From the NCBI GenBank assembly GCA_003223555.1, contig QHVM01000050.1:1-43796 (forward strand): a stretch of 43,796 nt of DNA. Reading direction: 5' to 3'. The position numbers and the translations under genes are program-made. This DNA is from Acidobacteriota bacterium. GTDB lineage: Bacteria; Acidobacteriota; Vicinamibacteria; Fen-336. The notes under the pieces are model-generated. The model did no database searches. It had not been told where the DNA came from and was given only the letters and a program-made list of their open reading frames with translations. Positions 8,126 to 43,796 of the stretch are shown here, piece by piece (positions within the stretch are counted from its first letter, which is position 1; every line of letters begins with the position of its first letter).

Positions 8126-8154
8126 GCCCTCGCGCGATTCACTCGCGCGAGGGC
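8126..8154 (+). repeat. 12-bp perfect hairpin with TTCAC loop in the PilZ leader
   Basis: Arms 8126-8137 and 8143-8154 are perfectly complementary (GCCCTCGCGCGA and TCGCGCGAGGGC) around the loop TTCAC (8138-8142). It lies inside the predicted leader of the PilZ gene, about 47 bp before its ATG. The GATTCACTC core recurs at 22665-22673 and 43513-43521. Confidence 0.8.
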
Positions 8155-22630: not shown

Positions 22631-22721
22631 CAGCACCCCCAAACAAAGGCTGCGAGCGGAGCGGGATTCACTCCCGCGGAGCGAGCGGGGGGGTCTGGGG
22701 GGTGCGCCGCTAGCACCCCCC
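22631..22721 (-). repeat. Dispersed GC-rich repeat with TTCAC-loop hairpin and alternative stems
   Basis: The centre is hairpin GCGGGA (22661-22666), loop TTCAC, TCCCGC (22672-22677). The segment 22697-22705 (GGGGGGTGC) can pair with 22713-22721 (perfect 9-bp stem, 7-nt loop) or with 22633-22640 (8 bp), so two folds exclude each other. It shares GCGAGCG, GGATTCACTCCCG, AGCGA and a G7 run, in that order, with 43502-43538. It lies in the 249-bp gap upstream of the DUF5916 gene, after the OmpA-gene terminator. Confidence 0.75.
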
Positions 22722-22743
22722 AGCTCGAGAAGAAAAGCAAAGG

Positions 22744-42776: not shown

Positions 42777-42784
<8 letters not shown>

Positions 42785-43487
42785 CGTGGCCGACAGCGCG
42801 CGCGGGAGCGGGACGGGCCGCAGCGAGACGGGCCGCCACCCGGCCCTCGTCCACCACTTCGAGAGCCTGCCCGCCCAGAAGGAGGCGGCCACCCTCGGCA
42901 TGTGGGTGTTCCTGGTGACCGAGGTGATGTTCTTCGGGGGGCTGTTCCTCGCCTACACGGTCTATCGCAACCTGCATTTCCACGCCTTCGTCCAGTCCAG
43001 CCGCCACCTGAACCTCGCCCTGGGCGCCGTCAACACCGCGGTGCTCATCTGCAGCAGCCTGACGATGGCCATGGGCGTGCACGCTTCGGCGCTGGGCCGG
43101 CGGCGGGGGACGGTGGCGTGGCTGCTCCTCACCGTGGCCCTGGGCTCGGTGTTCCTCGGCATCAAGGCCATCGAGTACAAGGACAAGTTCGACCACCACC
43201 TGGTGCCGGGCGAGCGCTTCGACGCCGAGGAGCTGCACCTGGAGGGGGACGAGGCGCGACAGGCCCAGATCTTCTACGCGCTGTACTTCGCGATGACCGG
43301 CCTCCACGCCACCCACATGGTGGTGGGCATCCCGATCATCCTGACCGTGGCCGGGCTGGCCCACCGCCGCCGGTTCAGCCCCGAGTACCACACGCCGGTG
43401 GAGCTGACCGGCCTCTACTGGCACTTCGTGGACATCGTCTGGATCTTCCTCTTTCCGCTGCTATACCTGATCGGGAGGCACCACTAG
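42777..43487 (+). CDS. coxC: Cytochrome c oxidase subunit III
   Basis: A 236-aa membrane protein with about five helices, of the short subunit III type: [80 protein letters not shown] and [20 protein letters not shown]. The WHFVDIVW signature is diagnostic. TTG 42777 is chosen because GAGGAGG at 42761-42767 is correctly spaced from it; GTG 42786 is the alternative start and would remove three residues. It overlaps the coxA end by 8 bp. Confidence 0.95.
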
Positions 43488-43490
43488 CCA

Positions 43491-43796
43491 TGAGCGATAG
43501 CAGCGAGCGAAGGATTCACTCCCGAAGCGACTTGGGGGGGAGCGCGAATGACCATGTCGTCTCGCCCGCCGTCTACGTCACCGTCTTCGCGGCCTTGGTG
43601 CTCCTCACCGGGCTCACCGTCTTCGCCTCCACGGTGAACCTCGGGATGTGGAACACGCCGGTGGCCGTCGTCATCGCGGTGGTCAAGGCCGCGCTCGTGG
43701 TCCTCTTCTTCATGCACGTCAAGTATTCGAGCCGGCTGGTGTGGCTGGCGCTCGGAGGAGGGATGCTGTGGCTGCTGCTGATCATCGCCGGGGCGG
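43491..43796 (+). CDS. Cytochrome c oxidase subunit IV-like protein (3' end outside window)
   Basis: The frame is open from ATG 43491 to the window end (102 codons). After about 20 N-terminal residues (MSDSSERRIHSRSDLGG...) comes HVVSPAVYVTVFAALVLLTG, then TVNLGMWNTPVAVVIAVVKA, LVVLFFMHVKYSSRLVWLAL and a third helix. This is the COX4/CyoD-like small subunit with the FFMHVKYSSRL signature, normally the last gene of this cluster. The first 16 or so codons coincide with a copy of the dispersed TTCAC repeat, so the N-terminus seems repeat-derived. GGGAGG at 43474-43479 is 11 nt from the ATG. No other in-frame ATG or GTG lies before the conserved part. Confidence 0.88.
43502..43538 (+). repeat. 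TTCAC-type dispersed repeat inside the cox subunit IV N-terminus
   Basis: Shares, in the same order, GCGAGCG, GGATTCACTCCCG, AGCGA and a run of seven G with the element at 22652-22692. The hairpin is degenerate here (GGA / TCC around TTCAC). It is translated as part of the first codons of the subunit IV gene. Confidence 0.65.

Follow-up and report, generated by a model that had tools for sequence, protein, structure and literature searches.

The window, the whole 43,796-nt stretch of DNA that was analysed, ends within a cta/cox operon. Its last gene encodes cytochrome c oxidase subunit IV (cox4) and runs from ATG 43490 to the contig end, and the stop codon of cox3, TAG, lies at 43485-43487. 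In the preliminary description, the subunit IV assignment and the cox3-cox4 frame were correct (TIGR02229 caa3_sub_IV, E 2.5e-20; PF03626, E 3.2e-14). The ATG it gave is also real, but it had been placed one nucleotide off, at 43491. The locus contains the following features:

42777-43487, forward strand: cytochrome c oxidase subunit III gene (cox3), the upstream neighbour (PF00510, E 2.2e-19; ORF list)
43472-43478, forward strand: possible Shine-Dalgarno sequence CGGGAGG before the subunit IV ATG, within the end of cox3 (inferred from the sequence)
43490-43496, forward strand: original subunit IV start, ATGAGCG, coding for Met-Ser-Asp with codon 3 completed across the insert (empty-site frame and starts of relatives)
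43497-43550, forward strand: 54-nt in-frame insert, the 5' half of a type B TTCAC-hairpin element (nhmmer; same-genus orthologue without the insert)
43551-43796, forward strand: conserved body of the caa3-type oxidase subunit IV, truncated by the contig end (TIGR02229, PF03626)

The insert in the subunit IV gene

It had been noticed that GCGAGCG, AGCGA and a G run follow each other in the same order at the start of cox4 and at a non-coding site, 22652-22692. These string matches are real at both sites, and an exact GGATTCACTCCCG is found at 22664-22676 and again at 43512-43524, with no other mismatch-free site in the window. The upstream site is indeed non-coding and is part of an intergenic element. 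The two copies belong to different subfamilies: the copy at 22648-22725 is a full-length type A element, and the one at 43497-43550 is half of a type B element. An nhmmer profile of type B, built from 17 other copies with the window copies excluded, matched 43492-43550 with 53.5 bits (E 5.1e-16). The same profile scored 17.8 bits at 22645-22692, and the best match in the reversed window, used as a control, reached 7.8 bits. The match in cox4 ends at AATG, halfway along the element. Compared with the type B consensus core, the cox4 copy carries one G>A change and one 3-nt deletion, its only indel, and the 24-mer AGCGAGCGAAGGATTCACTCCCGA of the insert recurs exactly in the sister genome (G001:C4:17252).

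When the 54 nt at 43497-43550 are taken out, the frame reads MSDHVVSP. The subunit IV of the sister, which belongs to the same genus, opens with ATGTCCGAACACATTGTTTCC (MSEHIVSP) and has no repeat at this gene (MSEHIVSPGVYV), yet the sister genome has many copies elsewhere. In further family members, subunit IV starts with (M)SDHVVSP or MSDHIVSW. Therefore, the insertion follows codon 3, and the ATG does not come from the repeat. Judging from these alignments, half a type B element entered the subunit IV gene in frame after codon 3 and added 18 residues, predicted as SSERRIHSRSDLGGSAND; the borders of the insert are uncertain by 1-2 nt because GA is present on both sides. The repeat had been thought to supply the N-terminus of the protein. 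It does extend the N-terminal tail, and repeat-derived codons do run in frame into subunit IV, but the repeat part is 43497-43550, and Met-Ser-Asp belongs to the empty site. The copy in cox4 has no stable hairpin (fold z +0.88) and its codon usage is poor (-6.6 log units across the first 22 codons).

The TTCAC-hairpin family in two genomes of one genus

We searched this genome (G000; 5.39 Mb, 151 contigs, 98% complete) and its sister (G001; 94% complete), the sole other genome of the genus that was compared; both assemblies are fragmented. A genome-wide search for further copies bore out the description of the repeat as dispersed: a longer pattern was found at 63 places in G000 with up to 3 mismatches, and the reversed control pattern at 0. 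This pattern does not catch the cox4 copy, which belongs to subfamily B and has a different spacing. A gapped pattern gave 160 overlapping hits in G000 and 170 in the sister, with 0 in the controls; alternatives at one place are counted separately in these numbers, and the distinct places are fewer, about 100 or more. Of the 193 genomes of the class, those other than these two gave counts of 0-10 if they belonged to the same family and order, and background counts otherwise. The TTCAC-hairpin family is plentiful in G000 and its sister, and the other genomes of the class have few copies or none.

The loop ATTCACT does not vary, whereas the stem differs between copies on both sides (GGG/CCC, CGG/CCG, GCG/CGC, CCG/CGG, CGA/TCG). 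A perfect 3-bp stem surrounds the loop in 94 of 101 distinct copies; shuffled controls averaged 72 such copies and never exceeded 79. The hairpin structure is kept by compensating changes, with several stem types. Two further features of the window are of interest here:

22648-22725, forward strand: full-length type A element, intergenic, a TTCAC hairpin followed by a G-run/C-run hairpin (CTGGGGGGTGC...GCACCCCCCAG)
8132-8149, forward strand: possible degenerate family member, GCGCGATTCACTCGCGCG (nhmmer 5.2 bits, E 0.35, not secure)

Type A elements contain two hairpins, are mostly intergenic and often stand in tandem about 74-84 nt apart. The DNA fold of 22648-22730 has an energy of -26.4 kcal/mol (z -2.65), and an Rfam search of the type A copy returned sub-threshold chance hits only. 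Type B elements (AGCAGCGAGCGAGGGATTCACTCCCGAGCGAGCGACTTGGGGGGGAGCGCGAATGCGCGCGGGGGGGTGC...ACCCCCCCGAA) are intergenic and in some cases lie directly at a stop codon. Type C elements consist of the same modules in reversed order (...CCCCCCAGCTCAAAGAGCGAGCGAGGGATTCACTCCCGAGCGAGCGAARGAC) and are often within genes. The small hairpin at 8132-8149 lies in the gap that separates a protein-kinase-like ORF from the next gene; it is a lone 18-nt perfect hairpin with the same loop, too short for assignment.

Several intergenic arrangements were also observed. Type B copies (L187, L199, L188 and others) often begin at or just behind a stop codon, and their strong terminal G-run/C-run hairpin may terminate transcription or form the 3' end of an mRNA. 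Many intergenic copies stand in short arrays (74-84 nt). At L154 (G000:C17:11540-11700), a 69-nt tandem array of type C-like units ends just before an ATG.

Copies within other genes

The cox4 insertion is not a single case of landing at a gene start, since the same family also interrupts many genes in frame at internal positions. A codon-usage score trained on long ORFs of G000 was used to scan for coding signal. In 15 of the 134 distinct copies sampled from the two genomes, one open frame spans the copy and coding signal is present on either side of it; the sampled regions are biased to coding copies, and this fraction is not a rate. Open-frame peptide matches without coding signal (L155, L169, L235, L242, L245, L250 and others) were not counted. 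L170, where the gene call is on the opposite strand and lacks support on both sides, was left out.

Among the conserved genes with in-frame copies are those for DnaE, a second DnaE/ImuC-like polymerase, RsmA/KsgA, RlmN, MazG and a YyaL-like protein (L149, named by eye, as Pfam gave no hit for its segment). Further hosts are an RNase R-like RNB protein, a nitrilase-like CN_hydrolase and a molybdopterin-binding xanthine-dehydrogenase-like protein, while an agmatine-deiminase-like PAD_porph protein holds a copy in reverse orientation. In DnaE, the copy reads KNVGEGAVEAVLSARR[...]GPFASLFDFCERVD within the host protein. Compared with orthologues without the insert in the other genome, the net lengths are 72 nt in DnaE, 63 nt in the second polymerase, 81 nt in KsgA, 66 nt in the YyaL-like gene, 72 nt in RlmN and 69 nt in MazG. 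All are multiples of three and stop-free in the host frame. Homologues in the PDB align on either side and skip the insert in RlmN, RsmA/KsgA and DnaE (in E. coli DnaE between ARNKGG and YFRELFD). Copies occur in each of the three forward frames (ASEGFTPERAK; ERARDSLPRERK; SERRIHSRAS) as well as in reverse orientation. Besides cox4, the family is present in frame in at least a dozen genes of G000 and its sister, and it appears to lengthen essential proteins by short peptides.

Some loci had a more complicated arrangement. In G001, the dnaE gene (L260/L264) bears a different insert, about 129 nt long and likewise in frame without a stop, which lies 5' of the site occupied in G000 (L162) and contains a TTCAT-loop variant in reverse orientation. 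L152 and L244 (G001:C299) are at the same place of the same gene in both species, but the form and orientation of the element differ, and they represent either an old remodelled insertion or two independent hits. With an element in both species, they were excluded as a presence/absence case. At L191 (G001:C304:3578-3763), an ORF has four head-to-tail copies of 45 nt towards its end, which code for the peptide SKSERGIHSRASAPN in repeated form, a case of tandem growth within a coding region.

Interpretation and comparison with known systems

We consider it highly probable that the in-gene copies, including the one at 43497-43550, are tolerated insertions of a mobile hairpin that would be translated with the host and most likely be neutral. 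A GC-rich family, probably non-autonomous and mobile (MITE-like), has multiplied in one genus of Vicinamibacteria and inserted both between and inside genes. Its length and stop-poor, GC-rich sequence would leave some insertions open. The surviving in-gene copies have a net length divisible by three and no stop codon in the host frame, and lie mostly at protein ends or in length-variable loops; they would then be transcribed and translated within the host protein. Translation is suggested by the frame, the length and the kind of genes that carry copies. Several of these genes are essential or highly conserved in most bacteria. In cox4, a half type B element may have inserted, or a whole one may have been trimmed later, leaving an 18-residue polar tail before the first membrane helix with the original start codon still in use. 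As to the means of movement, a transposase search that covered the PF01797 (Y1_Tnp) family alone found it absent from G000 and G001, and a RAYT mobiliser was rejected on this ground. The in-gene junctions compared have no consistent target-site duplication, with at most GA at cox4.

It is unlikely that the working start has moved to TTG 43532 (MGGSANDHVVSP) and that most of the repeat in cox4 is an untranslated leader. Automatic start choice by codon usage does pick 43532, since the insert scores badly. However, no Shine-Dalgarno sequence was seen before this TTG, whereas ATG 43490 retains a plausible one and fits the Met-Ser-Asp of the relatives. Moreover, the insert is 54 nt with a sole indel of 3 nt relative to the consensus, and copies elsewhere are in the middle of genes, beyond rescue by a start shift. 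Another suggestion is exaptation, already raised when the repeat was first noticed; in its adaptive form, the subunit IV tail would be selected for a role in oxidase assembly or regulation. The coding frame is indeed open, with an indel of 3 nt only, and the hairpin has decayed while the frame was kept open. Nevertheless, a gained function is unsupported, as neutral toleration fits the data equally well and no conservation of the cox4 insert between species could be demonstrated. Peptides of this kind occur in many unrelated proteins, from three forward frames and from the reverse orientation, which fits toleration better, and we regard adaptation as improbable. Most likely, the cox4 insert is a tolerated selfish insertion rather than an acquired function, as has been proposed for Rickettsia palindromic elements.

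The inserts might also be skipped, by ribosomal bypass or RNA removal. Mobile bypassing elements exist in some yeast mitochondria, and here too hairpins are present within conserved genes. Skipped inserts need be neither multiples of three nor stop-free, but all the net lengths compared are both, and the cox4 copy has lost its stable fold, making this explanation very improbable. An origin by chance or assembly artefact is hardly credible. The sequence is GC-rich and the assembly is in 151 contigs, but chance similarity is already refuted because of the E value of 5e-16 and the 0 control hits, and the same phenomenon appears at many loci in two independent assemblies.

Whether a recently or currently active mobile palindrome of this genus, able to spread through coding genes because its sequence keeps several of its frames stop-free in GC-rich DNA, repeatedly adds peptides of roughly 18-27 residues to essential proteins is in our view evenly balanced. 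It would represent an origin of selfish DNA in protein genes that is independent of the Rickettsiales, in a free-living bacterium. The best-known in-frame coding palindromes are those of Rickettsia, where the reduced genome of an intracellular organism provides the obvious setting. If tolerated insertion is correct for this unrelated-looking family, the coding-palindrome strategy would also exist in soil bacteria with large genomes and would not be a by-product of intracellular life. DNA polymerase III and rRNA methyltransferases are among the genes bearing copies in this lineage of Acidobacteriota. These genes would be a natural insertion set for studying the tolerance of essential proteins to random peptides and the ways in which these peptides might acquire a use.

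Rickettsia palindromic elements (RPE) are short palindromic repeats found between genes and fused in frame within unrelated conserved genes, and a guanylate kinase that carries an RPE is both translated and active (PMC2229807). R. conorii has 44 intragenic RPE insertions (PMC10969869). The TTCAC family likewise lies between genes and in frame within unrelated conserved genes, and it shares with RPE the multicopy dispersal, the conserved palindrome and in-frame insertions that are absent from orthologues. In contrast, RPE are about 105-150 bp and belong to obligate intracellular Rickettsia, whereas the in-gene TTCAC copies are about 54-81 nt, GC-rich, with a TTCAC loop and two hairpin modules in different orders, and their host is a soil member of the Acidobacteriota, probably of the Vicinamibacteria, with Acidobacteria isolate AA35 as its best named match. 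ERIC/RU-1, RU-2, RU-3 and the 107-bp Correia/NEMIS are non-autonomous repeats with open frames fused to host frames (PMC2229807, PMC2759123), as in the TTCAC family. Terminal inverted repeats are present in most of these MITEs, and target-site duplications in many; the TTCAC junctions compared have no consistent duplication, and core replication and rRNA-modification enzymes are among the targets of the family. Similar to REP/BIME, the TTCAC elements are dispersed, sometimes tandem, GC-rich intergenic hairpins, and type A has GNAG before the stem. However, REPs are typically extragenic and REP/BIME are mobilised by RAYT (Y1 transposases), whose PF01797 domain is missing from the element-rich genomes here. 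A literature search that covered few subscription papers turned up no account of this family in the Acidobacteria. The kind is thus already known from RPE and open-frame MITEs, while the TTCAC family, which we liken to RPE by kind and not by sequence and do not claim as a member of the RPE families, is apparently an undescribed family of that kind.
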